Both the position numbers and the translations under genes were made by a program. Below, piece by piece: positions 5,735 to 33,318 of a stretch of DNA of 35,101 nucleotides. This stretch comes from Deltaproteobacteria bacterium. GTDB taxonomy: Bacteria; Myxococcota_A; Polyangia; HGW-17. The stretch covers positions 1 to 35,101 of the forward strand of contig JAQICJ010000044.1 of NCBI GenBank assembly GCA_027858615.1, written 5' to 3'. The notes below the pieces were generated by a model. The model was not told where the DNA came from, made no database searches, and worked only from the letters and a program-made list of their open reading frames with translations. Every line of letters starts with the position of its first letter. Within the stretch, counting starts at the first letter, position 1.

Positions 5735-5767
5735 TCCTTTGCTCCTGATTTCGCTCCTGGTGTTAAT

Positions 5768-7346: not shown

Positions 7347-7982
7347 ATGAGCGGTCTAGCAAAAGCATTTGTAGACGGTGGTGAATTTATGTACGTAATC
7401 CTTTTTGCATCTGCATTCGGAATTGCAATCATCATCGAGAGAGCAATCTTTCTCCTTTTCAGGTACAACATCAACGCAGAAGCATTCATGAGTCAAATTA
7501 TGCAATTAGTTGGCTCCAATAATATAGATCAGGCCATCAAGCTTTGTAATGCAGCTCCTACTGCAGCTCTTCCCAGAGTTATCAAGGCTGGCCTTACCAA
7601 ATACAGTGAAGGCCCAATGGCTGTATCAGCAGCAATTGAAGAAGCAAAACTGGAAGTTGGTCCTGAAGTATCCAAAAGAACTCCTGCTCTCCAGGGTGTA
7701 GCCAACATTGCTACTCTTTGTGGACTGCTTGGTACTATTCTTGGTATGATCCAGGCTTTTGATGCTCTTGGTACAGCAACTCCCGAAAACAGAAGTGCTG
7801 TTCTTTCACATGGTATTGCTGTTGCGATGAACACAACTGCTTTTGGACTTATTGTTGCAGTTCCCTGTCTTACCGGCCATCTTCTTCTCATGGGCTTCAC
7901 CAAGAAAATTCTCAACGACGTAGAACTTTTCTCTACCAAACTTGACAACTATCTTGCCAGAAGACTCAGCAGAGCCAGATAA
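7347..7982 (+). CDS. aglR: MotA/TolQ/ExbB proton channel, AglR-like
   Basis: This 211-residue inner-membrane protein has the three-helix layout of the TolQ/ExbB/MotA family: helix 1 at about 14-36, a cytoplasmic domain, then helices at about 117-139 and 155-183. The Gly-rich segment around 126-133 (GLLGT) and the Asn-Thr-Thr-Ala-Phe-Gly stretch at 162-167 are typical of helices 2 and 3, which line the ion path. In this family a pentamer surrounds a dimer of TolR-like subunits and turns proton flow into motion or energy for the outer membrane. Two TolR-like genes follow directly, matching the aglR-aglQ-aglS motor of Myxococcus gliding. No tolA, tolB, pal or tonB gene is near, and gltJ- and gltG-like genes share the window. 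I therefore prefer AglR over TolQ or ExbB. Confidence 0.8.
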   Translation: MSGLAKAFVDGGEFMYVILFASAFGIAIIIERAIFLLFRYNINAEAFMSQIMQLVGSNNIDQAIKLCNAAPTAALPRVIKAGLTKYSEGPMAVSAAIEEAKLEVGPEVSKRTPALQGVANIATLCGLLGTILGMIQAFDALGTATPENRSAVLSHGIAVAMNTTAFGLIVAVPCLTGHLLLMGFTKKILNDVELFSTKLDNYLARRLSRAR

Positions 7983-8080: not shown

Positions 8081-8707
8081 ATGGCAAAATTCGAATTAGA
8101 AGATGATTTGGAAGACATCAATTTAATGCCGATTATGAATCTGCTTTGTTTGCTTATTCCTTTTCTTCTCCTGAGTGCACAGTTTATTCAGATTGGTATC
8201 ATTCTGGTTGATACACCTCGTAAGTCGCGTGTAAAGGATAAGAAAAAGAAAAAAGACAAGAAAGTCATGGGTCTTGTTATAGATATCACCCAAGAGGGAT
8301 ACTATGTATCCACCAAAAAGGGTTCTGTTTGTCCTGAACGCAAAAATAACGGGCAACCTTGTATTGCGGTAGTTCATGCTGGTGGTGAAAAGAAGTACAT
8401 GTATGATAAATTGCAAAAGTATCTTTACACCAAATTGTACAAACCAAACTACAAAAGCAATCGTGACAAGAAAGATGGAACTTTTGTCGATTGGGGCAAA
8501 GTAACCATCCGACCTCAGGATCAGATTGAGTATGATGTAGTTATCAATACTCTTGATGCTGCCAGAGAATTGCCCAACGAAGCCAAAGGTGAACTTGAGG
8601 GCTTGGAAAGTGGCAGTCTTGTTTGCAGTTTCAAGAAACCGCAAGGCAAAAAAGAGTGGGAATTACGTGGCAATTGCATGTTTCCCCTGGCCGCACTCGG
8701 TCGCTAG
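8081..8707 (+). CDS. ExbD/TolR-like motor subunit with Asn in place of the ion-binding Asp
   Basis: The protein (208 residues) has a short acidic N-terminus, one transmembrane helix at about 15-40 and a periplasmic domain, as in ExbD/TolR/AglQ/AglS. In that family a conserved Asp in the helix binds the proton. Here the equivalent position in the Met-Pro-Ile-Met-x-Leu segment is Asn20, so this subunit probably cannot carry the proton by itself. After the helix comes a Lys-rich stretch and then a periplasmic domain of about 130 residues with two Cys (near 82 and 91). AAGGAG lies 7 bases upstream of the ATG. The next gene encodes a second family member that keeps the Asp, so the pair probably works together. 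I cannot say which is AglQ and which AglS, so no symbol is given. Confidence 0.75.
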   Translation: MAKFELEDDLEDINLMPIMNLLCLLIPFLLLSAQFIQIGIILVDTPRKSRVKDKKKKKDKKVMGLVIDITQEGYYVSTKKGSVCPERKNNGQPCIAVVHAGGEKKYMYDKLQKYLYTKLYKPNYKSNRDKKDGTFVDWGKVTIRPQDQIEYDVVINTLDAARELPNEAKGELEGLESGSLVCSFKKPQGKKEWELRGNCMFPLAALGR

Positions 8708-8761
8708 TTCCAGATCAAGTTATAATAATCCCGAGCAGGCTTAATCAAAGGAGCTGATTTA

Positions 8762-9322
8762 ATGTACAACAATGATTTAAGAACAGCCGAAGAAGAGGCA
8801 ATGGCCAAAAAATTGGCCGAAAAAAAGGCAGCGAGAAGAAATAAAAAGGATGAAGATAATCCTTTAGCGATTACCTCCCTAATGGATGCTCTTACCATTA
8901 TTCTTATTTTCCTGCTCAAAAGCTATGGTTCAGATCCCATGAGTGTGCCTCAAAAGAAAAATGAGTTGATGATTCCAAAATCAACTTCCATGAGTAACAT
9001 GGTTGAATGTGTGGATATCCAGATTTCACGTACTAGTATTGTGGTGAAGGGCAAAAAAGTCGTCACTATAAACAACCTCGGTATTTCTTCTCAAGATGCA
9101 CCCAATGGATACATTATCAAAAATCTCAAAGACAGGCTTGACGATCTTAGAAATAAAGAAATAGAAGCCAAGCAGATAAGTGCCAAAAAGTTTCAGGGTG
9201 AAGCTTTTATAGCAGCTGATACCAAAATTCCATGGAAACTAGTGGATCAGGTATTGAAAACAGCGGTCAGAGCCCGTTATCTCAGATTCAGTTTTGCCAT
9301 TGTCAAGACGAGGGGTGGCTGA
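8762..9322 (+). CDS. ExbD/TolR-like motor subunit with conserved Asp (AglQ/AglS-like)
   Basis: This 186-residue protein has a very charged N-terminal cytoplasmic tail (residues 1-33), one transmembrane helix at about 36-54 and a periplasmic domain with the ExbD/TolR fold pattern. Asp42, in the Ser-Leu-Met-Asp-Ala-Leu segment at the cytoplasmic side of the helix, is in the position of the proton-binding Asp of TolR and AglQ. The start has AAAGGAG 9 bases upstream. It ends the motor operon: aglR-like channel, Asn-type subunit, Asp-type subunit. Together they can form a proton-driven engine, and this subunit is the one expected to carry the proton. No gene follows on this strand until 16546. Confidence 0.77.
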   Translation: MYNNDLRTAEEEAMAKKLAEKKAARRNKKDEDNPLAITSLMDALTIILIFLLKSYGSDPMSVPQKKNELMIPKSTSMSNMVECVDIQISRTSIVVKGKKVVTINNLGISSQDAPNGYIIKNLKDRLDDLRNKEIEAKQISAKKFQGEAFIAADTKIPWKLVDQVLKTAVRARYLRFSFAIVKTRGG

Positions 9323-16545: not shown

Positions 16546-18222
16546 ATGAAAATAATTTGTGACAATTGCCATACAAAATATTCCATAGCCGACAAAAAGT
16601 TGACTAAAGGCAAAGTTTTCAAAATAAAATGCAAGAAGTGTGGGAATGTTATTGTTGTCAAACCACAAGAAGAAGAGGAAGAAGCTGACGAGGACGCTAC
16701 TAGGGTTGTTGATTACTCAGCCATGTCAGGTGGTGGGAATGAGGCGAAAGCTGCTCCCGCAGAAGCTGTAAAAATCTGGCATGTAGTTATCAATGACAAT
16801 CAAGAGGGGCCATTTACGATTGCAGAAATAAAAGCCAAATCTGCTCTTGGTGAAATTACCAGAGATACTTTTGCCTGGAGAGAAGGGCTGGACGACTGGA
16901 AATCCATTTACAAGATTGATGAATTTTCAGAAGTTTTCGCTGCAGAACCGGCTTCAGAACCAGCTTCAGAACCAGCTTCAGAACCAGAAGATCCTTTTGC
17001 CTCTTTCGATTCAGGGGGAGCTTTTGGTGGAGATGAAAAGGACGATCTGTTCGGAAGTGAGTCAGAAGATGAAAATCTGCCCAAAATGAAAGGGCAGCGT
17101 CATGAGAATTCTGTTTTATTTTCACTTGATAATTTGCAAAATCTGGCTGCAGGCAAAAAGAAAAAGAAAACAAGTCGTCCCGGATACATAGATCCCAAAA
17201 GCAAAGGTAGCGGGCTTGTGGATATTGAGGAAATGGCTACATCTATATCTACCGGATCAAATCAACAGAATGACGATTTCGATCTTCCAGCCGCACCGGT
17301 TGTTGCCAATCCCTTGACCACTGCACCGGTCCTTACTCCGGCAGCAGCTCCTCAAATGCAATCATCAACCCGGGGGGCACCAGGTCAGCAAGCCAAGAAA
17401 AATAATAAGGTTCTCTTTATCGGACTGGGAGCATTTTTGCTGATAGTAGTACTTGCAGGTGGATTATTTATCTTCAAGGGCAGAGATTCCAAAGACAGTT
17501 CCGACAAAAAATCAACCAAGGTTGCTCAAAAAAATCAAGGTGACGATAAAAACAAGGTTGCCGCCAAAGACAAGAAGGATGCCGACAAAAAAGACGCTGA
17601 CAAAAAAACCAGTGATGGAAACGGCGATAAAGTAGATGACGCCAACAAGAAGGATGAAGATAAAAAAGACGCCGACAAGAAGGATGAAGATAAAAAAGAC
17701 GCTGACAAAAAAAATACTAAATCAGGTTCATCCGGTAGTTCCCGCAAAAGCCATAATACTGGCAAAAGCCATAATACTGGTAAAAGCCATAATACTGATA
17801 AAACCGGTGACTCCGGTTCATCAGATTCAGGCAGCAAGAGTGGGTGTACCAAAGTCTGGTGTATGTTGAAGAATAATAAACCATCCTGTTGTAAAAAATA
17901 TGTCTCCGGCGGAGGTTCAAGTAATTCCAGCAGTGATCCCTGTGCCAAGCACTCTAAAACAACATTGGCCGGAAGCGACGTCAGAACCGCCATTAATAAA
18001 GTCCGTGGTCGGGTAAGACGTTGTTTCTCCAAATACGGTGTTCATGGAACAGTTAAAGTAAGAGTCAAGGTTAAATGCAACGGCCGGGTGATCTATGCTT
18101 CTCCCAGAGGTAAACACAAGAGTACACCGGTTGGAAAATGCATTGCCAGAGCCGTTCGCGGAGCCAAATTTCCCAAATTCAAGAAAAAATCCACTGCCTT
18201 TACTTATCCCTTTGTTGGTTAA
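16546..18222 (+). CDS. gltJ: GltJ/AgmX-like protein: zinc ribbon, GYF, TM, TonB-like C-terminus
   Basis: Domains in order: an MJ0042-type zinc ribbon (Cys5, Cys8, Cys29, Cys32); a GYF_2 domain at about 75-130 (Trp-His-Val..., Gly-Pro-Phe, Trp-Lys); Ala-Ser-Glu-Pro repeats; one transmembrane helix at about 288-309; Lys/Asp-rich repeats (about 339-390) and Lys-Ser-His-Asn-Thr-Gly repeats (401-418); then an AgmX/PglI-type C-terminal domain from about 474 with paired Cys. This is the order of Myxococcus GltJ (AgmX), an inner-membrane protein whose cytoplasmic zinc and GYF domains interact with the polarity/motor system and whose periplasmic tail reaches outward. The start has AAGGAG with good spacing. 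The long repeats between membrane and C-terminal domain suit a periplasm-spanning spacer. PglI-type paralogues share the C-domain, so orthology needs a tree. Confidence 0.8.
   Translation: MKIICDNCHTKYSIADKKLTKGKVFKIKCKKCGNVIVVKPQEEEEEADEDATRVVDYSAMSGGGNEAKAAPAEAVKIWHVVINDNQEGPFTIAEIKAKSALGEITRDTFAWREGLDDWKSIYKIDEFSEVFAAEPASEPASEPASEPEDPFASFDSGGAFGGDEKDDLFGSESEDENLPKMKGQRHENSVLFSLDNLQNLAAGKKKKKTSRPGYIDPKSKGSGLVDIEEMATSISTGSNQQNDDFDLPAAPVVANPLTTAPVLTPAAAPQMQSSTRGAPGQQAKKNNKVLFIGLGAFLLIVVLAGGLFIFKGRDSKDSSDKKSTKVAQKNQGDDKNKVAAKDKKDADKKDADKKTSDGNGDKVDDANKKDEDKKDADKKDEDKKDADKKNTKSGSSGSSRKSHNTGKSHNTGKSHNTDKTGDSGSSDSGSKSGCTKVWCMLKNNKPSCCKKYVSGGGSSNSSSDPCAKHSKTTLAGSDVRTAINKVRGRVRRCFSKYGVHGTVKVRVKVKCNGRVIYASPRGKHKSTPVGKCIARAVRGAKFPKFKKKSTAFTYPFVG
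16951..16986 (+). repeat. Three exact 12-bp coding repeats (Ala-Ser-Glu-Pro)
   Basis: GCTTCAGAACCA occurs at 16951-16962, 16963-16974 and 16975-16986 inside the gltJ-like gene, on the cytoplasmic side just after the GYF domain. Exact DNA repeats suggest the copy number can change by slippage. Confidence 0.85.
17638..17697 (+). repeat. Two 30-bp coding repeats (Lys/Asp/Glu-rich)
   Basis: Units 17638-17667 and 17668-17697 differ at one base, and a partial unit follows. They encode alternating Asp-Lys-Lys segments in the periplasmic spacer of the gltJ-like protein. Confidence 0.8.
17746..17799 (+). repeat. Three 18-bp coding repeats (Lys-Ser-His-Asn-Thr-Gly)
   Basis: Units at 17746-17763, 17764-17781 and 17782-17799 are identical except at the last two bases. 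They lie in the periplasmic spacer of the gltJ-like protein. They have no spacers and are not a CRISPR array. Confidence 0.9.
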
Positions 18223-19945: not shown

Positions 19946-20011
19946 TGTAGTATATTGTAGTTAAAGATAGTTTATGTGAATACAATGTAGTATTCGTTGA
20001 AAGGAATAGAT

Positions 20012-21061
20012 ATGGCTTCCAACTGTATAGGACTTGATATTGGATCATCATCAGTAAAATTGGTGCAATTGAAAGAAACCCGTAAAGGTTTGATTTTAAG
20101 AAATTTTGGAATAAATCCTCTACTTGAAAGTCCCATAGCTGACGGGGCAATAATTAACCAGGTGGCGGTATTGGAAGCGATAGAAGCACTTTTTTCCAGG
20201 CTGGAACTGAAGAAAAAAGATGTATCTCTGGCAATTTCAGGCAGAAACGTGATTGTCAAAAAGATCCTGATGCCGATTATGAACAAAACTGATCTTGAAG
20301 AGGAACTGGCGGTTGAAATGGTTCACCATATTCCTTTTGATAAGGATGAAGTTGAAGTGGATTATGAAGTAGTGGTTCCTTCTAATAGTGAAGGTCAGAT
20401 GGAAGTTCTGCTCGTGGCCAGTAAAAAAGAAATAGTTGAGGATTATCTGGACGTTGTCAGAGAAGCAGGATTAAATCCGGTAGTACTTGATGTAGCTTCC
20501 TTTGCTGTTCAAAATATTATTGAAAGAACTCGCGGTATTGATCCAAATGAATCATATGTAATTCTTAATATAGGTGCTTCTTCAACTTCAATAAATGTTG
20601 TTATCAATGGGATTACCACCTTTGTCAGAGATATTGGAATAGGTGGAAATTCGATAACAGGAGAGATCCGACGTTCCATGCAGATTACTCTTGATGAAGC
20701 TGAGACCAAAAAACGGGAGGCTGCTTCCGGTATGTCTCCTGACAAAGAATTGATGAAAATTGTAACAGAAGTCTGCAACGTAATGGCAGGAGAAATTCAG
20801 CGTTCCATCGACTTTTTTCTCTCCACAGTAAATGTAAAGAAAGGCGTGAAAATCATTGTTACCGGCGGAGGTGCATTGATGAATCCTCTGATCAGTTCAA
20901 TTGAGAATAAATCTAATATGGTTGTTGAAAAATTTGATGGATTTGCCAGAGGCATAATTGTAGATGAATCAAAATTTGATATGCCATTGCTGCAAGCACA
21001 GGCCTCTACAGCTTCTGTTGCTTTAGGACTGGCTTTGCGAAAACCTGGAGATTGGCGCTGA
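20012..21061 (+). CDS. pilM: Type IV pilus assembly protein PilM
   Basis: PilM is an actin-like cytoplasmic ATPase that binds the N-terminus of PilN and joins the pilus motor to the membrane alignment complex. The ATG at 20012 has AAGGA 6 bases upstream; the TTG at 19997 is rejected. The 349-residue product opens with the phosphate-1 loop (GLDIGSSSVKLVQL, about 6-19), has a Glu-rich segment preceding HHIPFDKDEV near 105, a second loop with GASSTS (about 188) and the adenosine loop VTGGGALM (about 288-295). It leads a pilM-N-O-P-Q run in the standard order, with 24 bases to pilN. Confidence 0.94.
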   Translation: MASNCIGLDIGSSSVKLVQLKETRKGLILRNFGINPLLESPIADGAIINQVAVLEAIEALFSRLELKKKDVSLAISGRNVIVKKILMPIMNKTDLEEELAVEMVHHIPFDKDEVEVDYEVVVPSNSEGQMEVLLVASKKEIVEDYLDVVREAGLNPVVLDVASFAVQNIIERTRGIDPNESYVILNIGASSTSINVVINGITTFVRDIGIGGNSITGEIRRSMQITLDEAETKKREAASGMSPDKELMKIVTEVCNVMAGEIQRSIDFFLSTVNVKKGVKIIVTGGGALMNPLISSIENKSNMVVEKFDGFARGIIVDESKFDMPLLQAQASTASVALGLALRKPGDWR

Positions 21062-21085: not shown

Positions 21086-21742
21086 ATGATTAAAATAAAT
21101 TTGGTTCCTCAAAAGGTATCTCCCAATGTTGCTAGAGGAAAACAGTGGCTTGGATTGTTTCTGCTGGCCATTGGACTGACTGCGGCAGGATGTTATTACC
21201 ACTATAATTCTATGGTTGATCTTTCCAGTATTGAGGAAAACAAAAAGAAGGCCGCTTCGCTTGCAAGGCAGAAAAAGGATTTGTTCAAACAGATCGGGAA
21301 AATAAAGGTAATCCCGGCTGAGAAGAAAAAGAAGATACAAGAACGCTACAAAAAGAAATTGAAAATGGTAACGAGAATTGAAAATGTTCGCTCCAACCCT
21401 GTATTTGCTCTTTTGGAACTCTCCAGAATATTGAGTATCGGTCAAATGCCGACTGTTGTGTCGAGTTTGAATCAGACAAAGATCAATCTTGATCCCAACT
21501 GGGTGCCCACGCCGATTTATCTCACCAGTCTCAAGGAAAATAATCGTGAAGTCTCCATAAAGGGGGTAACAATGAGCTATTCAGATGTAAGTGAATTTGC
21601 TAAACGACTTAATTATTCAGCCTATTTTCGCAATCCCGAAATAGTTGAAACCAAAAAAATCAAGGAAAAAAAGAAAACCAAAGATAATGATATTGAAATA
21701 ACCAAAGTAGATTTTTCTCTCAGGGCAATAATGGTTTATTAG
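21086..21742 (+). CDS. pilN: Type IV pilus alignment protein PilN
   Basis: This 218-residue inner-membrane protein starts with the PilM-binding motif Ile-Asn-Leu-Val-Pro (residues 4-8) and has one transmembrane helix at about 20-40. A Lys-rich coiled-coil stretch (about 48-100) and a ferredoxin-like periplasmic domain follow. Ribosome site AGGAG precedes the ATG by about 6 bases. It dimerises with PilO in the periplasm. The coiled coil is unusually Lys-rich, in keeping with the other proteins in the window. Confidence 0.9.
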   Translation: MIKINLVPQKVSPNVARGKQWLGLFLLAIGLTAAGCYYHYNSMVDLSSIEENKKKAASLARQKKDLFKQIGKIKVIPAEKKKKIQERYKKKLKMVTRIENVRSNPVFALLELSRILSIGQMPTVVSSLNQTKINLDPNWVPTPIYLTSLKENNREVSIKGVTMSYSDVSEFAKRLNYSAYFRNPEIVETKKIKEKKKTKDNDIEITKVDFSLRAIMVY

Positions 21743-21783: not shown

Positions 21784-22410
21784 ATGGAACGTATCTATAA
21801 CTGGCTGGCTACTTCCTCTCTTGTTCACAAGGCAGGTATAATGGCTGTAATTTGTGGAGGAATAGTCGGTTACTATTATTTTGTTCCCTATGCGGCTGTA
21901 AAGGGAAAAGTCAAAAAATTTGAAGACAAGGTTAATTATGCCCGGATATCTCTTTCATCTTCCAGAAAGAAATTGACCAGGACCAAAGCCGCCCGCAAGG
22001 AATTGATGGAAATCGAAAAAAGAGGAAAAAACCTCAGCACCAGAATTCCCAGTTCAGTGGATATGTCTCAGTTAGTAGGCGAACTTGATGAAATGGCAGA
22101 TGAAATAAATATTCGCAAGATAAAGCCTGTTGATGAAGAACAGAGTATTGGAACTGAAGTTAAAATAAAACCGATAGAGTTTGAATTGACCGGCAGATTT
22201 CATCCTATTTGCCGATTTTTGTACAAGATGTTCCAGATGAACAGACTTATGGATGTTGGTGATATTACGTTGTCTCTAGTAGATAAAAAAAGTGGCAGAA
22301 TCAAAGAAATAGAAAAAAAACATCAACTTAAGGCCAGCTTTACTGCCAGAATTTATTATTCTCCAACTATTGTTGAAGTGGAAGAGAAGAATGACAAAAG
22401 AAAAAGATAA
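21784..22410 (+). CDS. pilO: Type IV pilus alignment protein PilO
   Basis: The 208-residue protein has a short cytoplasmic tail, one transmembrane helix at about 15-36, a coiled coil at about 42-75 and a periplasmic ferredoxin-like domain (ELTGRFHPICRFLYKMFQM region near 138-156). It pairs with PilN and recruits PilP. It stands 41 bases after pilN and is followed by a 149-base gap before pilP, longer than the other gaps in this operon. Confidence 0.88.
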   Translation: MERIYNWLATSSLVHKAGIMAVICGGIVGYYYFVPYAAVKGKVKKFEDKVNYARISLSSSRKKLTRTKAARKELMEIEKRGKNLSTRIPSSVDMSQLVGELDEMADEINIRKIKPVDEEQSIGTEVKIKPIEFELTGRFHPICRFLYKMFQMNRLMDVGDITLSLVDKKSGRIKEIEKKHQLKASFTARIYYSPTIVEVEEKNDKRKR

Positions 22411-22559
22411 CAGGAACCAAAAATTAGTAACGATTAAGGGTTCCCTTTTTCAGAATGGTTTACAACAAAGTTGACCGATAAAAAAAGTCCCTGTTCAGAA
22501 GTGGATACCAGGAATTTGAATGAGTTGACAGTTTATTTTACTATAACACGGAGTTGAAA

Positions 22560-23258
22560 ATGTCTTTTGCAACAAAAATTTTGATATTACTCTTGACCCT
22601 TATTCCCGTTGGCTGCGGTATTGGGGATAAAGGTGGAAAATCCAGAGGAAAGAAGAAATCTTCGGGCAGACCATCAAATCTCAGACCGGGAGAAAATAAA
22701 CAGAAAAATGTCAAGAATGTACAATTAGTAAATAAATTTGATGCTTCGAAATTGCAGATTCCACCTTTTAACAGAAAGGCGCAGAATATTCCTCCGGAGA
22801 TGTTTACCGAAAATGGGAAAGAAAGACGAGATCCCTTCAGAAACTTCCTCCTGGAGAACAGCGGGAATATCAGTAATCAATCAGATCAGTCTCTTTCCGG
22901 AGAAAAAGGAGGAACAGTACTTCTGGAAGATTACGGGCTTAACAATCTCAATTTAACTGGAATAATCTGGTCTGCCGGAAGAGAAAAAGCTTTGTTTTCT
23001 AATTCAAGGGGACAACCGACTACAGTGCTTAAGGGTGACAGAATTTCCAAATCAAAAGCTCTGGTTAAGGAAATAACCCATGATAAGGTTCTGGTAGAAT
23101 TAAAATCAGACAATGATGAATCGGGAAAAATAGTAACTTTTAGTCTGGAAAGGACAAATATGCCCTACCAGATTCAATATGAAAAACTCAGATCTGATCA
23201 ACGCGGAATCAGAATCAGAAATAGAAGATACGGAAGATCCAAAAGGAGGAGAAAATGA
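22560..23258 (+). CDS. pilP: Type IV pilus lipoprotein PilP
   Basis: The ATG at 22560 has GGAG 6 bases upstream; the in-frame TTG at 22554 is not needed. The 232-residue product begins with a lipoprotein-like signal, Cys19 in a Pro-Val-Gly-Cys box (Pro at -3 is unusual). A disordered linker follows, then the conserved Asp-Pro-Phe-Arg segment and the PilP beta-domain (LTGIIWSAGREKALF... and VLKGDRISKS...). PilP links PilN/PilO to the N0 domain of the secretin PilQ. The C-terminus is an Arg/Lys-rich tail. The stop overlaps the pilQ start (ATGA), so the two are translationally coupled. Confidence 0.9.
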   Translation: MSFATKILILLLTLIPVGCGIGDKGGKSRGKKKSSGRPSNLRPGENKQKNVKNVQLVNKFDASKLQIPPFNRKAQNIPPEMFTENGKERRDPFRNFLLENSGNISNQSDQSLSGEKGGTVLLEDYGLNNLNLTGIIWSAGREKALFSNSRGQPTTVLKGDRISKSKALVKEITHDKVLVELKSDNDESGKIVTFSLERTNMPYQIQYEKLRSDQRGIRIRNRRYGRSKRRRK

Positions 23259-26200
23259 ATATCATTAAATTAATAGGAAAAACAGGAATTGCGGTTTTTC
23301 TCTTTCTGAATTTTCTGCTTCCAGTCAGAGTTGAAGCAAAAAATAATAAACTTAATTTGATCAGGAGTATTTCAACAAAATCTGATCTCTACAAAGAATC
23401 AATAACTTTTTGGGGATCCAGACCTGCTACTTTCAGTGCCTACAAGTTAAAAAATCCCAGAAGATTGATCATCGAGTTATCCCATACTTACATTAAAAAA
23501 TGTTTACCTGGCGATTTGAAATCTTCTGTGGTTACTACTGTGAGTTGTAAAAATTTAAAAAGAGGGAAGCAGCGCATATCCCAGGTTGTTTTCAATCTAG
23601 ATTCGATGGTGAAATATCGAATTAATTCCCAAGGCTCCAAAGTAAAATTGGAAATACATGTGGATCAGTCCCGGGTTTCCAAATCCAATTTGATCAGAAT
23701 CAAGATCAAAAAGATGAAAAGCCAGCTAGATTCAATGAGAAATCAACTTGATTCAGCACAGAAGAAGCAACTTGAGTATCAGAAAAAATTAAAAAGCACT
23801 TTGAGTAAGGTTCGCAGGAAAAGCAGGAAAAATAACATCCTGCAGAACAAAATTAAAAGATCCCATCGTGAAATTGCCAAGCTCAAAAATAAAAGAATTA
23901 ATCTGGAAAGCAATCTGAAATCAGCCAGAAATCAACTTGAAAAAACACGTCTGGTTGAAAGAAAAATTAAGATAAGAATAGAAAAATTGAGACAGAAAGT
24001 TGATAAAATCCAAAACAGCAGAAAACAAAACATGAAAAAGCTGGCCAGGATAAATAATTCTTTTCAATCCAGACAGAAAACCAAAGGAAAACTTCTGGCA
24101 AAAATAGGTCAGGATAAATCACAGTTGAAGCAGCTTTCGCAAAAAATCAAAGCTATGAAAAACAAAAACCAGACTATCAGTAAACAACTGATGGATCGTC
24201 TGAGTTTTTTGAAAAAAAGATTGAAAAATTCCCGGAGCAGGCTTGTTTCTACCCGCAAGGAACTCAACGTTTTTACTGCCAGAAGAAAAAAAATACAGAA
24301 ATTGTGCGACCGGGAGGAAAAGCGTTTCAGATTACTGAAAAAAGATTTGCAGGAACAGAAAACAACCTTGGTAAATCGTATAAACAAGTTGAATAAGAAA
24401 AACAATAAACTGGCTCAAAGGAAGAACAAGCTTGAACAGGAATTGTTATCCTTGAAAAACAAGAGAAAGCAACTTGATAAGATTGTCAACAAAAAGGCCA
24501 GTCTGTCTAGTTTCATTAAAAATAAAACCCAGAAGGCAAAAAATCTGCATTTGAAGATGAAACAACTGGCCAAAACTGAACAGGAAAAAGTTCAGGCAGC
24601 CAGACAGTTGAAAAGCCGTCTGAAAAGTCTGATCAAAAAGCAGCGCCAGGATTTGAAACAACTTGAATCAGTAAAAGACAAAGAAGTTAAACTGTTGTCA
24701 ACTCTTCAAACTTTAAGGAAAAAACACCGAAAATTGCTGGCTCAGGAAAAGTTGAAACTACAGAAATTGAAAGAGCAGGGCAAAAATAATAAAACCCGTC
24801 GCCGCATGAAAGCACGTCAGTTAAAACGAATCAAAGAGATCAAAAAATTGAGCCGTAAAGCTGAGTATTGGAAAAAGCTGGTTGGCAAAAGAGAAAATGA
24901 ACTGGGACAGGTTAAGACCAGAATTAAAAGAATGAATTCCAAGTTTACAAAAATGCGTTCACGTTACCTGGAGATCAGAATGGAGGTAAGTCAACTCAGC
25001 CACAACCGAGATCTGATCAGAAAAAAGATTCGCAAATCCAAAGAAAACCTCGAATCCCTCAATCTTAATGCCAGGGAAAAAACAAGAGACTTAATCAGGA
25101 TTAAAAAAGCCATTAGAACCAAATCCAGAGTTTTTGATCGAATCAGCAAAAAGCTGGCCAAGGTCAAAAAGGGATTGGGGTGGTTATCTCGTCGCAAAAC
25201 AATCAAAGAAAAAGAGCTGGAAGAATTAAATAAAACAGCTACCAGACTCCAGCAGAAAGTAACAGCCAGAAAGAGTGAAATTAAAGAATTGAGAAATGAG
25301 AGAAGTCAACTTCTTTCCAGATTCAAGCAACTCAACAAGCGAAAAGCTCAACTGCAGACCCAAATCAAAAATTACGAAAATAAAAAACGATCAAAAAAAC
25401 AGAATCTGCAGGCGGATATTACCAAGATGAAAGAAGAATTGGCAAAACTCAAAAAGACTCGCCGGAAACTTGTTGAAAAAGTAAGTGCTATTGAGTCCAG
25501 AAAGAGAAAGATTGAAAAAATCAGAAACAGTTCCGGATACAATGGAAAATTGCTGGCTCGCATCAATAAAGTTGAGTTTAAAAATTCACCCTGGTCCCAT
25601 CAGGTTATTATGTCTTTCAAAGGTAAGCAGGTTCCAGCAAAAATCTTTCACAAAGACAAACTTTTTACCTTGAGGATAAAGGGAGTTGAATTTGCCAAAC
25701 GATTGAACAGAAAGGTTGATACTGAAGCCTATGATGGTCCTGTAAAAAGTTTTCTCACCTGGAACAAAAGTCAGACCAAAATGCCAGTTGCTGAATTAAA
25801 AATTAACACCAGAGGTGTGCGTAAAGCCCAGATAAGAAGAAGAAAGGGAAAAATTATAGTTTTGATTCCCAAAAGTGTTACAGAAGTAAGAAGAGATAAA
25901 AGGCAGAAATCCCAAAAAGTTGCTCCTACCAGGGTTGCCAGTTATCGTACAGCTCTCAGAAAAACAACTGAGAAACTGCCGCAAGCTTCTTCCCGTCGCA
26001 AGCGACTTTATTTGAACAAGAGAAGAAGTAAAAGAGCAAGTAGAAGAAGATCGGGCAAAAAAAGATACAAAGGGCGTTTTGTCGATCTAGATTTCAAAGA
26101 TGCCGATATTCACAATGTAATCAGGCTTGTAGCAGAAGTGTGGGGCAGAAATGTTGTTATCCCTGATGAAGTAAAAGGCACAGTTTCCATAAAATTAAAC

Positions 26201-27370
26201 AATGTACGAGTGGATCGAGCCTTTGATGTAATTTTGAAATCCAAAGGATTGAGCTGGTCTTATGAAGGTGGCAAGATCATCCGGGTTATCACCATGGATC
26301 AGATGAAAAAAGAAAGGGCGGAACGTCTGGCGAAAACCAAGACCAAGGTAAGGATGATCAAGACCGAAACCAGATTGATTCCCATCAATTATGCTGATGC
26401 AGAAGAGATATCCAAGTCGATAAAAGAAAACATCAAAAGTAACCGGGGCAAGGTTTCCTTTGATAAGAGAACCAATGTTATTATTTATACAGATGTTCCC
26501 TCCAAACTCAGTGTTGCTCGCAAATTGATCAACTCCCTGGATATGCCTACTCCCCAGGTTCAGATCGAAGCCAGAATTGTTGAGGCTGAATCTACTTTCC
26601 TGAGAGAAATAGGGGTTCAATGGGGAGGAAGTGTTCTTGCCAATTCAGCCAACGGTAATCCAACCGGATTGATCTTTCCCAGTAATATTGGCATGGCCGG
26701 TGGAAACATGGATCAACTTACCAGTACTGGAGGAATTGGATCAGCTGGAGCTGCCAATCCTGATTTTGCTGTAAATCTGCCAGCTTCCACGGGACAGGGT
26801 TCCGGTGGTGCTTTGGGAATGACTTTGGGTTCTCTGGCAGGAGCTGTCAACATAAATCTGAGGCTTTCAGCCATGGAGGAAGTTGGCCACGTTCGTTCCA
26901 TTGCAACTCCCAAAATCACCACTTTGGATAATGTGGAAGCAAAAATCAGCCAAGGTGTTGAAATTCCTTATCCTCAGAGCAGTGCCCAGGGAAATACAGT
27001 TATTATGAAGCAGGCTGTTCTTTCTCTGGCGGTAACACCTCATGTTACCAATGACAATAATGTAAAAATTAAAGTCAAGGTAACCAAAGATGAACCTGAT
27101 GAAACCAACAGAGGTGCAGATGGTTCTTTGGGTATTGCCAAGAAATCAGCAGAAACACAGATGCTGGTAAAAAGTGGAGATACTGCCGTAATTGGTGGAA
27201 TTTACAAAAGACAATCCACCCTGGTTTACAGGAAAGTTCCCTGGTTTGCCGACATACCGGTAATTGGATGGTTGTTTAAAAGTAAGTATAAAAGAGATAA
27301 CCGCAGTGAAATTTTGATTTTTATTACTCCCAGGGTGTTAAATCGTTCAGATGTGGTAAGTAAAAAATAG
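23255..27370 (+). CDS. pilQ: Type IV pilus secretin PilQ with giant coiled-coil insertion
   Basis: PilQ forms the outer-membrane ring through which the pilus passes. The product has 1,371 residues, roughly twice the usual size. Order: signal peptide (1-28), AMIN domain (about 32-137), a Lys/Arg/Gln/Leu-rich coiled coil at about 143-757, a second AMIN-like domain (about 766-875), a basic linker, secretin N0/STN domain (about 940-1010), N1 domain (about 1035-1110) and the secretin core from about 1115. The core ends VPWFADIPVIGWLFKS and then a strand FITPRVL. The C-terminal half is a normal PilQ, including the family motifs, so the pore should be intact. The coiled coil between the AMIN domains is what makes it odd; AMIN domains usually bind peptidoglycan and lie close together. 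The frame is open throughout with no sign of an assembly join. Confidence 0.93.
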   Translation: MNIIKLIGKTGIAVFLFLNFLLPVRVEAKNNKLNLIRSISTKSDLYKESITFWGSRPATFSAYKLKNPRRLIIELSHTYIKKCLPGDLKSSVVTTVSCKNLKRGKQRISQVVFNLDSMVKYRINSQGSKVKLEIHVDQSRVSKSNLIRIKIKKMKSQLDSMRNQLDSAQKKQLEYQKKLKSTLSKVRRKSRKNNILQNKIKRSHREIAKLKNKRINLESNLKSARNQLEKTRLVERKIKIRIEKLRQKVDKIQNSRKQNMKKLARINNSFQSRQKTKGKLLAKIGQDKSQLKQLSQKIKAMKNKNQTISKQLMDRLSFLKKRLKNSRSRLVSTRKELNVFTARRKKIQKLCDREEKRFRLLKKDLQEQKTTLVNRINKLNKKNNKLAQRKNKLEQELLSLKNKRKQLDKIVNKKASLSSFIKNKTQKAKNLHLKMKQLAKTEQEKVQAARQLKSRLKSLIKKQRQDLKQLESVKDKEVKLLSTLQTLRKKHRKLLAQEKLKLQKLKEQGKNNKTRRRMKARQLKRIKEIKKLSRKAEYWKKLVGKRENELGQVKTRIKRMNSKFTKMRSRYLEIRMEVSQLSHNRDLIRKKIRKSKENLESLNLNAREKTRDLIRIKKAIRTKSRVFDRISKKLAKVKKGLGWLSRRKTIKEKELEELNKTATRLQQKVTARKSEIKELRNERSQLLSRFKQLNKRKAQLQTQIKNYENKKRSKKQNLQADITKMKEELAKLKKTRRKLVEKVSAIESRKRKIEKIRNSSGYNGKLLARINKVEFKNSPWSHQVIMSFKGKQVPAKIFHKDKLFTLRIKGVEFAKRLNRKVDTEAYDGPVKSFLTWNKSQTKMPVAELKINTRGVRKAQIRRRKGKIIVLIPKSVTEVRRDKRQKSQKVAPTRVASYRTALRKTTEKLPQASSRRKRLYLNKRRSKRASRRRSGKKRYKGRFVDLDFKDADIHNVIRLVAEVWGRNVVIPDEVKGTVSIKLNNVRVDRAFDVILKSKGLSWSYEGGKIIRVITMDQMKKERAERLAKTKTKVRMIKTETRLIPINYADAEEISKSIKENIKSNRGKVSFDKRTNVIIYTDVPSKLSVARKLINSLDMPTPQVQIEARIVEAESTFLREIGVQWGGSVLANSANGNPTGLIFPSNIGMAGGNMDQLTSTGGIGSAGAANPDFAVNLPASTGQGSGGALGMTLGSLAGAVNINLRLSAMEEVGHVRSIATPKITTLDNVEAKISQGVEIPYPQSSAQGNTVIMKQAVLSLAVTPHVTNDNNVKIKVKVTKDEPDETNRGADGSLGIAKKSAETQMLVKSGDTAVIGGIYKRQSTLVYRKVPWFADIPVIGWLFKSKYKRDNRSEILIFITPRVLNRSDVVSKK

Positions 27371-27385
27371 AGAAGAGGTTCTATC

Positions 27386-28129
27386 ATGAAAAATTATTTT
27401 AAAATTATTCTGGTTTTACTGGTGATGGCAACTGGAAGCTGCGCTGAAAACAGTGCTTCACTGGTGATCATTCAGAACCAAGCTCCTGAAGAAGGATGTA
27501 CAGCCTCCAATCAGGTTTCAACTGATTTTCTTTCCCATGGGATTATTGATGTAGGAGCCGCAAGATATGGCCTTGATCCTCGTTATATCGGCTGGTTTGT
27601 AGTTGAAAACAATCTGACTTCAACCGTCGAAAGCAATGGTATTGAGTTGAATAAAGTAGAGATCAAGCAGGCTAATGTTTCATTGAATTTGGGAGCAGCC
27701 GGTTCTAATCTTGGCAGTGAATATACCAAATTTTCAGATTCTACTTTTGTTTCCATACCACCCGATGAAACCAGATCTGTACAGGTTAACCTTATTCACC
27801 CCAATGTGGCTGACAGATTGAATATTCAAGAAGGCCAATTTATTGAGGGTTTTGCTTCGCTGCAAATTATTGGAGAAATAGGGGGAACAGAGATCGAAAC
27901 CAACAAAATTACCTTTCCCATCACTATCTGTTACGGATGTCTGGTTCAAAACATTGGTCCCTGTGATGCTGCAGTTTTTCCCGAAACCCTGAGCGAGGGA
28001 CACAGTTGTAATAAAACTCAGGATGAAGAGTTGCATTGTTGTTTTGATTCCAATGCTTCAGATGCAGATAATCCTTATCGCTGTCCTGCTGTTGAAGATA
28101 CTTCATCCAATAATTCCAGTGCAGATTAA
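27386..28129 (+). CDS. Unknown Cys-rich lipoprotein at the end of the pil operon
   Basis: The 247-residue product has a lipoprotein signal with Cys19 in a Thr-Gly-Ser-Cys box. The mature part is mostly beta-type sequence with Asn, Gly and Ser. The C-terminal 70 residues contain at least seven Cys (including Cys-Tyr-Gly-Cys and Cys-Cys), suggesting disulfide-bonded export. It starts 15 bases after pilQ, with AGAGG upstream, and is closed by a strong terminator, so it is transcribed with pilMNOPQ. I do not recognise the family. By position it could be a PilQ pilotin or a partner of the secretin at the outer membrane, but it lacks the TPR pattern of Tgl/PilF. Confidence 0.75.
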   Translation: MKNYFKIILVLLVMATGSCAENSASLVIIQNQAPEEGCTASNQVSTDFLSHGIIDVGAARYGLDPRYIGWFVVENNLTSTVESNGIELNKVEIKQANVSLNLGAAGSNLGSEYTKFSDSTFVSIPPDETRSVQVNLIHPNVADRLNIQEGQFIEGFASLQIIGEIGGTEIETNKITFPITICYGCLVQNIGPCDAAVFPETLSEGHSCNKTQDEELHCCFDSNASDADNPYRCPAVEDTSSNNSSAD

Positions 28130-28332: not shown

Positions 28333-29370
28333 ATGAAAAAAAAACTGACCTACAAAAGTTCAGGAGTTGATATTGACAAGGGAAATGAGCTGGTTGACAG
28401 GATTTCTCAAATGTCAAAAAGTAATGTCAAGGGAGCTAATTTATCAGTTCCGGGAGGATTTGCCGGACTTTTTTCCCTGTCTGACCAATACAGTGAACCG
28501 ATTCTGGTATCTTCAACAGATGGAGTTGGAACCAAGTTGAAGATTGCTTTTGCAATGGATAAACATGATACAATTGGCCAGGATCTGGTGGCAATGAGTA
28601 TTAACGATATTCTGGTTGCCGGAGCTGATCCTTTGTTTTTCCTTGATTATCTGGCAACTTCTCATCTAGAAGTTGATGCCGCTGCAGAAGTTATTGAGGG
28701 GATCAATCGTGCTTGCAATTCCTGTCAGGTTGCCCTGCTGGGGGGAGAAACGGCTGAACTGCCGGGTTTTTATCAGCCGGGGGAATATGATCTGGCCGGA
28801 TTTGCAGTTGGAGTTGTTGAGAAAGCAAAAATTCCAGATCCAAACCTGGTAAAGGCAGGTGATTTGATTTTGGGTTTGCCATCTTCCGGTCTTCATTCAA
28901 ATGGTTACAGCTTGGCCAGAAAAGTATTTTTCGAGGTTATGGAAAAGAAGATTGACTCAATTTTTCCCGAATTAAACAAGAGTGTGGGGGAACTTCTGCT
29001 TGAACCCACAAACCTCTATGTAAACCAAGTCAAAATTCTTCTGGAAAATAATCTGGTCAAAACAATGGCTCATATTACAGGAGGAGGACTGGTGGAAAAT
29101 CCACCCCGTACTTTACCTGAAGGCTTGGGAGCCGATATTCGCATGGGGGCATGGCCTCTACCTCCGGTTTTCAACATAATCAGTGAAGCCGGGGTCGGAT
29201 TTAATGAAATGGTAAGAACCTTCAACATGGGAATAGGTTATATCTTTGTCATAGCTCCAGAAAACCAGGAGAAAGCAAAAAGATTGCTCTCCAAATCCGG
29301 GTTTTCAAGTTATGTAGTTGGTTCCATAAGTGAAAGAGAAAAGGGGAAGGAAACCAGGTTTATAAAATGA
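28333..29370 (+). CDS. purM: Phosphoribosylformylglycinamidine cyclo-ligase (AIR synthetase)
   Basis: PurM uses ATP to close the ring of FGAM to give AIR, the fifth step of purine synthesis. The 345-residue length is standard. Visible motifs are the ATP/substrate segment STDGVGTKLKIA (about 58-69), the GQDLVAMSINDILVAGADPLFFLDY region (about 80-104), LLGGETAELPGFY (about 136-148) and the C-terminal HITGGGL (about 246-252). There is no clear ribosome site before the ATG. The last four bases overlap the next gene (ATGA), coupling purM to the purN fusion. The 203 bases upstream follow the pil terminator and show no riboswitch I recognise. Confidence 0.95.
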   Translation: MKKKLTYKSSGVDIDKGNELVDRISQMSKSNVKGANLSVPGGFAGLFSLSDQYSEPILVSSTDGVGTKLKIAFAMDKHDTIGQDLVAMSINDILVAGADPLFFLDYLATSHLEVDAAAEVIEGINRACNSCQVALLGGETAELPGFYQPGEYDLAGFAVGVVEKAKIPDPNLVKAGDLILGLPSSGLHSNGYSLARKVFFEVMEKKIDSIFPELNKSVGELLLEPTNLYVNQVKILLENNLVKTMAHITGGGLVENPPRTLPEGLGADIRMGAWPLPPVFNIISEAGVGFNEMVRTFNMGIGYIFVIAPENQEKAKRLLSKSGFSSYVVGSISEREKGKETRFIK

Positions 29371-30509
29371 TTATCAGAAAAACAGCAGTTTTTGTTTCCG
29401 GGCGGGGATCCAATTTTGAAGCTTTGGCTGATTATGCTCAGAAAAATGATGTTTCCTATCAAATAAAACTGGTAATTACTGATAATCCTGAAGCGCCTGC
29501 TCTTGCAAAGGCAGAAAAACGCAATTTGCCGGCAGTTATTTTTTCTCCAACGAATTATTCCGGGAAAAAAGAATATGAAGAAGCAATTTTCGAAAAATTG
29601 CAGGAAGAAAAAATTGAGGTTATCGCACTGGCAGGTTTTATGAGAATTGTCGGTAAAACTCTACTTACAGCTTTCCCCAATAGAATTCTCAATATCCATC
29701 CTTCCCTCCTGCCCTCATTCAAAGGGTTGAATGCACAGAAACAAGCTTATGACTATGGAGTAAAATATACGGGTTGCAGTGTTCACTTGGTTGATGCCAG
29801 TATGGATACCGGTCCTGTTCTTGAGCAGGAAGTTGTTGCAGTTTCTGATTCATGCAGTCTTGAAGAATTAAAGGACTCCATTCTGGTCAGAGAACACATG
29901 CTCTATCCCTTTGTGCTGGATAAATTCTGTCGCGATGAATACCGGCTGGAAGACAGAAAGATCAACAGGATCAAGCTTTCTGAAAAGGCAAAACCCTATT
30001 ATGAAAATTTCTGCGCTTTGCATTATTCAGATAATTATGAAGAATTTCTGAAAAAATTCAAAATCAGTAAAAGGGAAAAAGTGGCTGTAAGTGCTTGTGG
30101 TCTTGGTATTCCCTGCCGTTATGATGGTTTGTCAAAAAGTTGTCCTGAAGTTTTGGAGCAAGTTCAGGGAAAAAGGGTTTTGCCAATTTGTCCTGAAGTT
30201 ATGGCCGGATTGTTTATTCCCAGGAAAAAGATGGAATTTATCAAGGGGGACGGATGCAGGGTATGGTTCCATCCTGATGGATTGCGAAATTGTGATGGAA
30301 AAAATATGAACAAAGCAATGATCAGGGGAGTACAAAAGTTGCTGGCTGCTCTGAATATGGCAAAAGTGGAAAAAATCCTTTTGAAATCAAAAAGTCCCAG
30401 TTGTAGTTTATCAAAGGTATATAAAAATGGAGTACTGGTTTCCGGCAAAGGAGTTGCTGGCTGCAAACTTGAACAGGAAGGATTTAAACTGGAAGAATTT
30501 AAAGGGTAA
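29367..30509 (+). CDS. purN: PurN (GAR transformylase) fused to a DUF523/TudS-like domain
   Basis: Residues about 4-190 are a complete formyltetrahydrofolate-dependent GAR transformylase. They include the SGRGSNF phosphate loop, NIHPSLLPSFKG with the catalytic Asn and His, and HLVDASMDTGP with the catalytic Asp. After a linker (about 190-235), residues about 236-378 form a DUF523 domain with its full Cys set: SACGLGIPCRYDG, CPE and SPSC. DUF523 includes TudS, an iron-sulfur thiouracil desulfidase, so a [4Fe-4S] cluster is plausible. PurN is normally about 200 residues and separate. I see no internal stop or ribosome site that would split the two. The role of the fusion is unknown; a link between purine synthesis and removal of sulfur from bases is only a guess. 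Confidence 0.9.
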   Translation: MIIRKTAVFVSGRGSNFEALADYAQKNDVSYQIKLVITDNPEAPALAKAEKRNLPAVIFSPTNYSGKKEYEEAIFEKLQEEKIEVIALAGFMRIVGKTLLTAFPNRILNIHPSLLPSFKGLNAQKQAYDYGVKYTGCSVHLVDASMDTGPVLEQEVVAVSDSCSLEELKDSILVREHMLYPFVLDKFCRDEYRLEDRKINRIKLSEKAKPYYENFCALHYSDNYEEFLKKFKISKREKVAVSACGLGIPCRYDGLSKSCPEVLEQVQGKRVLPICPEVMAGLFIPRKKMEFIKGDGCRVWFHPDGLRNCDGKNMNKAMIRGVQKLLAALNMAKVEKILLKSKSPSCSLSKVYKNGVLVSGKGVAGCKLEQEGFKLEEFKG

Positions 30510-30756: not shown

Positions 30757-33318
30757 ATGACCAAGAAGCCACGACCATTTGGAAAATATTATCTGCTGGA
30801 AAGAATAAACGTCGGAGGGATGGCTGAAGTTTTCCTTGCCAAGTCATTTGGTTCAGACGGCTTTGAAAAACTTGTGGCAATCAAAAGAATTTTGCCGAAC
30901 ATCGCTGAAGATGAAGAATTCATCAAGATGTTTATTGACGAGGCAAAAATTTCTGTAAAATTGAACCATCCCAATATTGCTCAAATCACAGATCTCAACC
31001 AGGAAAAAGGAGTTTATTATATTGCCATGGAATATGTTCATGGCAAAGATGCCCGCAGTATTTTTGAAAAGTGCAGAAGTAGCAGAAAGCCCATGAGTCT
31101 GGCTCAGGCATGTTTCATCATCATGAAAGTCTGTGAAGGACTCGATTATGCTCACAACAAGAAAGATTCCAATGGAAATCAGATTGGTATTGTTCATCGG
31201 GATATCAGTCCGCAGAATGTACTTGTATCATACGAAGGTGATGTCAAGATAATAGATTTCGGTATAGCCAAAGCCGCTGGTAAAGCTTCCAAAACTCAAG
31301 CCGGTATTTTGAAAGGTAAATTTGGTTATATGTCTCCGGAGCAAGTCAGAGGACTTCCCCTTGATCGCCGGTCAGATATTTTTTCCCTGGGTATAGTTCT
31401 TTATGAATTACTCACAGGAGAAAGACTCTTTGTAGGAGAATCTGACTTTTCCACTCTGGAAAAGGTCAAAAATGTCGAAATTCTTCCACCAAGCACCTAT
31501 AATACCAAAATTCCGGAACAGCTCGAACAGATAGTATTGAAATCCTTGGCTAAAAATGTGGAAGAGCGTTATCAAAACGCCAGTGAAATGCATGATGAAC
31601 TGCAGGCTTTCATGTATACCAGCGGTGAGTTCTATTCCCGCAAAGATCTCAGTTCCTGGATGAAAAAGATCTTCAAAAATGATCTGCAGGAAGCCAAAGC
31701 AAATCTTGAAGAATATAATAAAATAAGCATGACTCCCCAGATGAAAAGCAAAATCAACAAGGGGGGGAAAAGTTTTCTTGATGGTCCTGCACCCATGATC
31801 GACAAAGGTGCACCTGCGGCGGCTTCATCAACCCAACAAAATGAACAAAGCCAGGGTTGGTGGGAAGAAGATGAAGATATAGAAACTGAACTGTATGACA
31901 AGCCCGAAGATATGTTGGAAACAGAGGAGAAGACAGAACAGCGTCCAGTGGCATCCGAGTCTCCCAATTTGCAACCGGGTTATAACCAGCAGCATGCACC
32001 ACCACCACCCAGGAAAGCTCAACCCTCAGGTCGAAGGCCTCCTGTTTCCGGTGAACCACCAATCAATAACCCTCAATATCAGCAACCAGCAGCTACTGCC
32101 AGTGAAGCCTACAATTACAACAATCAGCCCGAGTTGGTTTCTCAATATTATAGTGCCAAACCAAAAAAAAGCGGCAAAGGTCTGCTCATCGGGATAACTG
32201 CTCTTCTTTCAGTTCTGGTGGCAGGATTTCTGGTCTGGTTTTTTGTTATCAACAAACCTGAATCAGAAAAGGTTATGCTCAAAGTCAAAGTTTCCCCTGC
32301 TCGGGGAGTCAATGTTCAAATTGCCGACAGCAACAACAAACAAATCAAAGTTCCCGGAGAACCACCTCTTGAGTTAGAGTTGAAACCAGGAAAATATAAA
32401 ATAATCCTTGATAAGAAAGGTTATAAAAAAGTAACAGAAGATATTGTTCTCACAGCAAATTATATTCTTGACAAAAATCTGGAACTGGATCCCGAGGAAA
32501 ATGTTTTCAAACTTCACATAGTTGGAGAACCCAAAGGGGCAACCGTTTGGCTCAACGGCAAGGAATATGCCGATAAAACACCATGGAAAGGCATGGATAT
32601 AAAGGCTGGCACCTATAAAGTCGAAATAGGCAAAGATGGCAAGTTTTATCGGTTTAAAGAAGTTTATAGCAAAAAAATGGGTGAATCCCTCAAAATCAAT
32701 TATAAGCTCATGCCCAAAAAAGCTACAATCAAGGTTAAGGTAACACCGGACAAGAGCAGAGTTTGTGTTGTAACCTCCAAAGATGCAGAGCCTACCTCTG
32801 GAGTATGTAATTACAGCCATAAGGGCGATTTGCAGTTTGAGCCTTCACCTGAAAAGAAATACTGGTTAAAGGTTGAAAAAACAGATTATGAAACCAAAAC
32901 TCTGGAAATGGATATCAAAGGAAAACTTGCCTGGGGAAAAAACCAGAATATTCAGTTGAACAAAAAATCGGGAAAAGCAGTTGTCTCAAATCGATATACT
33001 CCACCTTCAACTAATACGAATAACCGCAATACATATACACCTCCCATGACCATCATGGTCAAAAAGGTAATGAACACTAGACCTGCAATGACTGTACATA
33101 AACCTGCCAGTCGGGGAAGTGGCACTTTGAGAATAAATTCCAGACCTCGCTCCACAGTTTATATAGACGGTGCCAAAAAAGGCTGGACCCCCAATAAAAT
33201 TAAATTAAGTTCCGGCAGACATAAAGTGACTTTAATCAATAACGCCCAGGGTAAAAGAAAAACCATTTATGTCACCATCAAATCAGGTAAATCAATAACT
33301 AAAATTATAAAATTTTGA
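30757..33318 (+). CDS. Membrane Ser/Thr protein kinase with PEGA domains
   Basis: The 853-residue protein has an N-terminal Hanks-type kinase (about 8-285). Visible motifs are a Gly-rich loop, Lys43 in VAIKRIL, HRDISPQN in the catalytic loop, DFGIAK, and a Ser-Pro-Glu in place of Ala-Pro-Glu. It therefore looks active. A Pro/Gln-rich linker (about 330-465) and one transmembrane helix (about 476-495) follow. The outside part carries three to four PEGA-like repeats, the last about residues 786-853 (STVYIDGAKKG). PEGA domains probably sense or bind something in the periplasm. The ATG has GAGGAG upstream. It is followed by an exported small protein and an FHA gene, so it may belong to the gliding machine's control, though such kinases are numerous in Myxococcota-like genomes. 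Confidence 0.92.
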   Translation: MTKKPRPFGKYYLLERINVGGMAEVFLAKSFGSDGFEKLVAIKRILPNIAEDEEFIKMFIDEAKISVKLNHPNIAQITDLNQEKGVYYIAMEYVHGKDARSIFEKCRSSRKPMSLAQACFIIMKVCEGLDYAHNKKDSNGNQIGIVHRDISPQNVLVSYEGDVKIIDFGIAKAAGKASKTQAGILKGKFGYMSPEQVRGLPLDRRSDIFSLGIVLYELLTGERLFVGESDFSTLEKVKNVEILPPSTYNTKIPEQLEQIVLKSLAKNVEERYQNASEMHDELQAFMYTSGEFYSRKDLSSWMKKIFKNDLQEAKANLEEYNKISMTPQMKSKINKGGKSFLDGPAPMIDKGAPAAASSTQQNEQSQGWWEEDEDIETELYDKPEDMLETEEKTEQRPVASESPNLQPGYNQQHAPPPPRKAQPSGRRPPVSGEPPINNPQYQQPAATASEAYNYNNQPELVSQYYSAKPKKSGKGLLIGITALLSVLVAGFLVWFFVINKPESEKVMLKVKVSPARGVNVQIADSNNKQIKVPGEPPLELELKPGKYKIILDKKGYKKVTEDIVLTANYILDKNLELDPEENVFKLHIVGEPKGATVWLNGKEYADKTPWKGMDIKAGTYKVEIGKDGKFYRFKEVYSKKMGESLKINYKLMPKKATIKVKVTPDKSRVCVVTSKDAEPTSGVCNYSHKGDLQFEPSPEKKYWLKVEKTDYETKTLEMDIKGKLAWGKNQNIQLNKKSGKAVVSNRYTPPSTNTNNRNTYTPPMTIMVKKVMNTRPAMTVHKPASRGSGTLRINSRPRSTVYIDGAKKGWTPNKIKLSSGRHKVTLINNAQGKRKTIYVTIKSGKSITKIIKF

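Follow-up and report, generated by a model that had tools for sequence, protein, structure and literature searches.

AMIN domains are usual, but not universal, in PilQ, the secretin of type IVa pili. The PilQ protein of Pseudomonas aeruginosa, about 714-731 aa in length, carries two of them ahead of its N0, N1 and secretin domains (PMC10653833) and has no coiled coil. That of Myxococcus xanthus, 901 aa in length, carries three (PDB 3jc8; PMC10653833), which are required for polar recruitment and have been proposed to bind polar peptidoglycan. The solved PilQ chains that we matched range from 571 to 901 aa and have short AMIN linkers. Neisseria PilQ contains small basic repeats that are reported to affect pilus formation (PMC3441751). 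A long periplasmic coil has been described in a different kind of protein, Deinococcus SlpA (of the SlpA/OmpM type), whose solved arrangement consists of an outer-membrane barrel, a coiled coil of ~28 nm and an N-terminal domain that binds the cell wall (PMC9388160).

The window analyzed here is a stretch of 35,101 nucleotides (contig JAQICJ010000044.1, assembly GCA_027858615.1) from a member of the class Polyangia, and all features of its pil operon lie on the forward strand. The ORF at 23255-27370, with an ATG at 23255, a stop codon ending at 27370 and no internal stops, encodes a 1,371-aa protein that scores 410.9 bits against the NCBIfam profile TIGR02515 (cut-off 284.35, E 6.5e-123). It is the final gene of pilMNOPQ, preceded directly by pilM (19997-21061; PF11104, 6.4e-64, and TIGR01175 over its cut-off), pilN (21086-21742; PF05137, 7.1e-13), pilO (21784-22410; PF04350, 1e-13) and pilP (22554-23258; PF04351, 7.7e-09), the end of which overlaps the start of pilQ by 4 bases. 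No other secretin in this 3.67-Mb, 92.9%-complete genome exceeds the TIGR02515 cut-off; the other listed secretin frames, of 840 and 495 aa, score lower. By its profile score, its operon position, its N0-N1-secretin order and its AMIN domains, the ORF encodes an orthodox type IVa pilus secretin PilQ. Directly 3' of pilQ is a gene (27386-28129, +) whose 247-aa product is acidic, has an N-terminus resembling that of a lipoprotein (ATGSC) and matched no Pfam or NCBIfam family. Farther downstream are a PurN glycinamide formyltransferase gene to which a 2-thiouracil desulfurase domain seems to be fused (29367-30509, +) and a gene for a Ser/Thr protein kinase bearing PEGA repeats (30757-33318, +).

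The PilQ protein begins with a putative signal peptide (residues 1-28, MNIIKLIGKTGIAVFLFLNFLLPVRVEA; 23255-23338), assigned from the translation, followed by a first AMIN domain, AMIN1 (residues 34-135; 23354-23659), a coiled-coil insert (residues 143-757; 23681-25525), a second AMIN domain, AMIN2 (residues 768-872; 25556-25870), and a short, very basic linker (residues 885-944; 25907-26086) with net charges of +15 and +17 per 50 residues. In the C-terminal part, Pfam finds, in order, N0 (PF21305/STN, residues 945-1011; 26087-26287), N1 (Secretin_N, residues 1039-1101; 26369-26557) and the secretin domain (residues 1206-1362; 26870-27340), the last of which matches PF00263 at 3.1e-45 and is supported by TIGR02515 as well. 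An earlier note made from the DNA sequence had proposed the order AMIN-coil-AMIN-secretin, with a normal C-terminal secretin, and Pfam, family profiles and AlphaFold bear it out. Cut out of the window PilQ, AMIN1 scores 22.6 bits against Pfam AMIN (gathering score 20.5), and the same family is matched by AMIN1 in 38/38 aligned orthologues. AMIN2 of the window PilQ itself has no Pfam AMIN match, but its counterpart does in 39/40 aligned orthologues, and AlphaFold, PDB profile matches and Foldseek also support the assignment. MAFFT stacked the AMIN2 rows onto the AMIN1 rows in an alignment of AMIN fragments, and the two domains are therefore alike.

In the AlphaFold monomer, a beta domain is followed by helices at 143-753 and then by a second beta domain. 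The top Foldseek matches of the model are PilQ and AmiC, and its matches also include hairpin coils, namely Rad50, the MukB elbow, Smc arms and a chemoreceptor. The AMIN1 family profile aligns to residues 24-145 of M. xanthus PilQ (chain match 1.9e-35), and the AMIN2 family profile aligns to residues 327-481 (6.5e-31) and also to the Neisseria B2 domain, matches that place the coil between the counterparts of M. xanthus AMIN1 and AMIN3. AMIN1, the last AMIN domain, N0, N1 and the secretin domain are orthologous in the two proteins, whereas M. xanthus PilQ has no coil and carries its second AMIN domain and linkers (residues ~146-326) at that place. For P. aeruginosa PilQ, the chains in PDB 6ve2 and 9x0w likewise gave matches with two AMIN domains ahead of N0, N1 and secretin.

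Between residues 141 and 757 there are no prolines, seven glycines, 207 Lys and Arg residues and 54 Asp and Glu residues, and the hydrophobic period is 3.50 (windowed power z = 23 relative to shuffles). The description of residues ~143-757 as a Lys/Arg-rich coiled coil thus holds, as does the estimate that a straight helix of this length would measure ~90 nm, far more than the width of the periplasm (615 x 0.15 = 92 nm). We rejected tandem repetition as the origin of this coil, since it contains no clear long repeats, unlike some giant coils of relatives.

Conserved G/N-rich breaks interrupt the helix near residues 301, 510 and 707 in the window's order, at spacings of about 209 and 197 residues, and the heptad phase shifts near 310-360, 500-510 and 712. 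The first break (residues about 301-307, KNKNQTI, with NG-K/Q/R in relatives; 24155-24175) is seen in the alignment, with phase drift afterwards; the second (residues 504-513, GKNN, with G-N in relatives; 24764-24793) is seen in the alignment, as a phase jump at about 500-510 and as a loop in AlphaFold runs both with an alignment (508-512) and with a single sequence (504-513); the third, weaker one (residues about 704-710; 25364-25384) has an alignment z of 3.1 and a phase shift near 712. Breaks 1 and 3 are not loops in either AlphaFold run, and the single-sequence run has an additional loop at 636-645. Both runs predict helices for the insert, but their pTM values, 0.30 and 0.23, are too low for helix packing to be taken from them. 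Since about 200 helical residues span ~30 nm, the arm of the window's order probably folds back in segments of about that length, and we infer an antiparallel fold of the coil. Folding back, one of several shapes offered in the earlier note, is probable since three breaks are kept within the order, although only that at 504-513 also appears in both AlphaFold runs. A universal 200-residue segment was considered and rejected: it held in the window's order and in the repeats of another family (f30), but breaks elsewhere are irregular.

The insert is real and is not unique to the window protein, and it occurs clade-wide in two myxobacterial classes. A search of secretins for the AMIN-coil-AMIN order, suggested in the earlier note, found it across the clade. 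Every relative in the window's family and order has a long PilQ, apart from those in which a contig end truncates the gene, and PilQ frames of at least 1,000 aa occur in about 67 of the 113 genomes of the class with a PilQ match at 1e-90, a count in which some shorter frames are cut by contig ends. Two single-contig genomes, of 5.05 and 5.85 Mb, encode coils of 287 and 278 residues. Among 80 named loci, the coil spans at least 150 residues in 13 (one of them, L105, labelled Bradymonadales) and is absent from the PilQ of Myxococcus, Corallococcus and Anaeromyxobacter. Coil length across the clade ranges from 210 to ~2,025 residues, the latter being the helical span of the longest PilQ examined (2,787 aa). 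The flanks in orthologues are mostly 130-160 residues before the coil and 140-210 residues between the coil and N0. In a phylum-wide survey, PilQ frames are mostly 2,100-2,830 aa in family f30 and up to 2,089 aa in family f34. The PilQ proteins encoded at loci L154 (G204), L155-L161 and L165 measure 2,097-2,787 aa; their coils account for about 1,350-2,025 residues, and several contain internal repeats of about 200-270 residues. One long pilQ frame (2,215 aa; G254:C37:11967-13226) contains a single in-frame TAA.

The coil is old. On a quick IQ-TREE tree of the secretin part (124 rows), which alone cannot separate gain from loss, one 94-row clade contains 63 of the 64 coil rows. Within this clade are the window's class, whose rows of Byssovorax and Sandaracinaceae point to Polyangia, and rows of Bradymonadales type, but neither Myxococcus nor Anaeromyxobacter. 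Only 5 changes of coil state are needed on the tree, compared with 36.5 when labels are shuffled. Given the coil-free outgroups, the simplest reading would be one old gain and then several losses, which we would place on the Polyangiaceae/Sandaracinaceae side, in G031 and in L102. A separate case is L109 (from MAG 4559-240), whose coil-bearing PilQ sits on a long branch outside the main clade, adjoining a coil-free row; its coil may represent either a separate gain or an older origin.

Across the window's order, the coil shares 22-26% identity with its orthologues, compared with 74-82% for N0 through secretin, yet coil length stays within 582-693 residues with 6-11 gaps, and coil alignments hold their register for some 600 residues (z 10-24 relative to heptad-block shuffles). 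Against coils of other orders, identity hardly exceeds that of the heptad control (z about 3.4-3.6), so the case for homology across orders rests on position more than on sequence. By rough Nei-Gojobori estimates for five close pairs, coil dN/dS lies at about 0.09-0.13 in all but one, for which it is 0.28, values that indicate purifying selection on a sequence that drifts while its length is kept. Several giant coils have lengthened by internal duplication. Those of f30 contain repeats of 199-232 residues, each with two weak, unequally spaced glycine motifs; the coil-coding part of pilQ in L162 (G169, bases 5246-6272) has 13.7 copies of a 75-base (25-residue) repeat; and the L167 (G226) coil has nearly identical 103-residue repeats (autocorrelation z 26) that point to a recent expansion.

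What might such a coil do? Our preferred reading, to which we assign a probability of roughly 0.45, is that it serves as an extended spacer, which would place AMIN1 at a distance from the ring and so anchor the pilus machine in the wall. The coil, lying between the first and the ring-proximal AMIN domains, would act mainly as a mechanical spacer that holds the predicted peptidoglycan-binding AMIN1 ~30 nm or more from the ring. Each of an expected 12-15 subunits would then extend as a long arm with its tip attached to the wall, and the arms, if load-bearing, would moor the machine against pilus retraction and spread the load over a wide patch of wall. We favor a spacer because both AMIN ends and the heptads are kept while the sequence drifts and the length varies by lineage; in orthologues the coil invariably separates the same pair of AMIN domains. 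The polar-recruitment role of the M. xanthus AMIN domains and the SlpA arrangement are further points in its favor. Several observations count against the long-arm reading. Length varies tenfold and several lineages may have lost the coil while keeping PilQ, so no fixed reach is needed; the AlphaFold models have low pTM and lack loops at breaks 1 and 3; and the unequal glycine motifs of the f30 repeat leave a universal 30-nm segment unsupported.

The main rival is that the coils of neighboring subunits pair, bundle around the ring and stiffen its vestibule, with AMIN1 staying in. The conserved breaks would permit such folding back, the strong a/d heptads suit pairing between subunits, and secretin rings, judging from PDB relatives, would bring 12-15 copies together. 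However, 12-15 copies of a 2,025-residue coil would make a very large collar, and tenfold variation in length is more readily reconciled with a spacer than with a packed shell; we consider this explanation unlikely. The earlier note had envisaged a large basic collar, and while the window coil is indeed very basic, this is not general among orthologues.

Charge also bears on a second, improbable alternative, in which the K/R-rich coil is an arm for binding polyanions, be they LPS, wall polymers or DNA, the last perhaps during DNA uptake. The Pro-free stretch of the window PilQ has a net charge of +163, two families of the same order have strongly basic coils (+212 and +178), the net charge per residue of the window PilQ, 0.169, is the highest among the ORFs compared, and DNA binding has been reported for Neisseria PilQ (PMC2884949). 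The genome of the window is, however, AT-rich and Lys-rich overall, and the net charges of orthologous coils range from -38 to +212, most of those outside the window's order being near neutral. Strong positive charge is thus local to some lineages, and we rejected it as a shared function of the coil.

Long heptad coils commonly associate. This would favor lateral association between the coils of different pilus machines, which would form a polar scaffold that clusters the machines, but we regard such a lattice as quite improbable given the very rapid drift of the sequence (22-26% identity). Finally, there is virtually no chance that a fusion or misassembly joined two genes into the frame 23255-27370, the artefact that the earlier note had allowed for in case relatives had a normal-sized PilQ: nothing was found in its favor, relatives share the insert, which recurs in many genome assemblies, including two chromosomes on single contigs, a signal peptide and AMIN1 stand ahead of the coil, and the coil is under purifying selection.

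A link between the coil and gliding parts had also been suggested. Upstream of the pil operon are a gene for a GltJ/AgmX-like gliding protein with an MJ0042 zinc ribbon, a GYF domain and a myxo_SS_tail (16546-18222, +; E 8.8e-40 to NCBIfam GltJ, below the curated cut-off), an ExbB/TolQ-like gene (7347-7982) and two ExbD-like genes (8081-9322), similarities that suggest Agl/Glt-type genes near the operon. Of 59 relatives, 27 have GltJ-like matches (E <= 1e-15), none of which exceeds the family cut-off, and these turn up whether the coil is present or absent. The two show no correlation among these 59 and the link is not supported, although this is a weak test because GltJ is multi-domain.

The long-arm reading can be put more broadly, and here we are more tentative: across two Myxococcota classes, the secretin ring may bear 12-15 coiled-coil arms that moor it to distant peptidoglycan and that lengthen by internal duplication. 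If so, the arms, which would measure about 30 nm in the folded state and might contain as much as hundreds of nm of helix, would serve as guy-ropes. Few secretins have been studied as well as PilQ, and a coil of up to 2,000 residues alters the view of how the machine can be anchored. The clade also offers a natural length series (0, and 210 to 2,025 residues) in which the effect of wall anchoring on pulling force and on polar placement can be followed. Bradymonas and its relatives, which are predators, have been cultured, and electron microscopy has shown their pili (PMC7460792), so tomography is feasible in this group, the coil being known here from loci and not from any named isolate.

Consistent with the earlier note, we found no PilQ with a long coiled coil in the literature searched, mostly without subscription papers, such that earlier notice is possible; passages searched in a survey of myxobacterial pilus genes (PMC6060248) make no mention of coils. 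The nearest described variation is that of the Neisseria basic repeats, where the corresponding stretch between the B1 and B2 beta domains is variable, basic and of low complexity. Those repeats are short and no coiled coil has been reported in them, whereas the window insert consists of 615 residues of heptads without near-identical repeats. The other nearest precedent, Deinococcus SlpA, is alike in its working and is not homologous: SlpA/OmpM proteins have an SLH domain and a trimeric, porin-like barrel, where the window PilQ has AMIN domains and a secretin ring.
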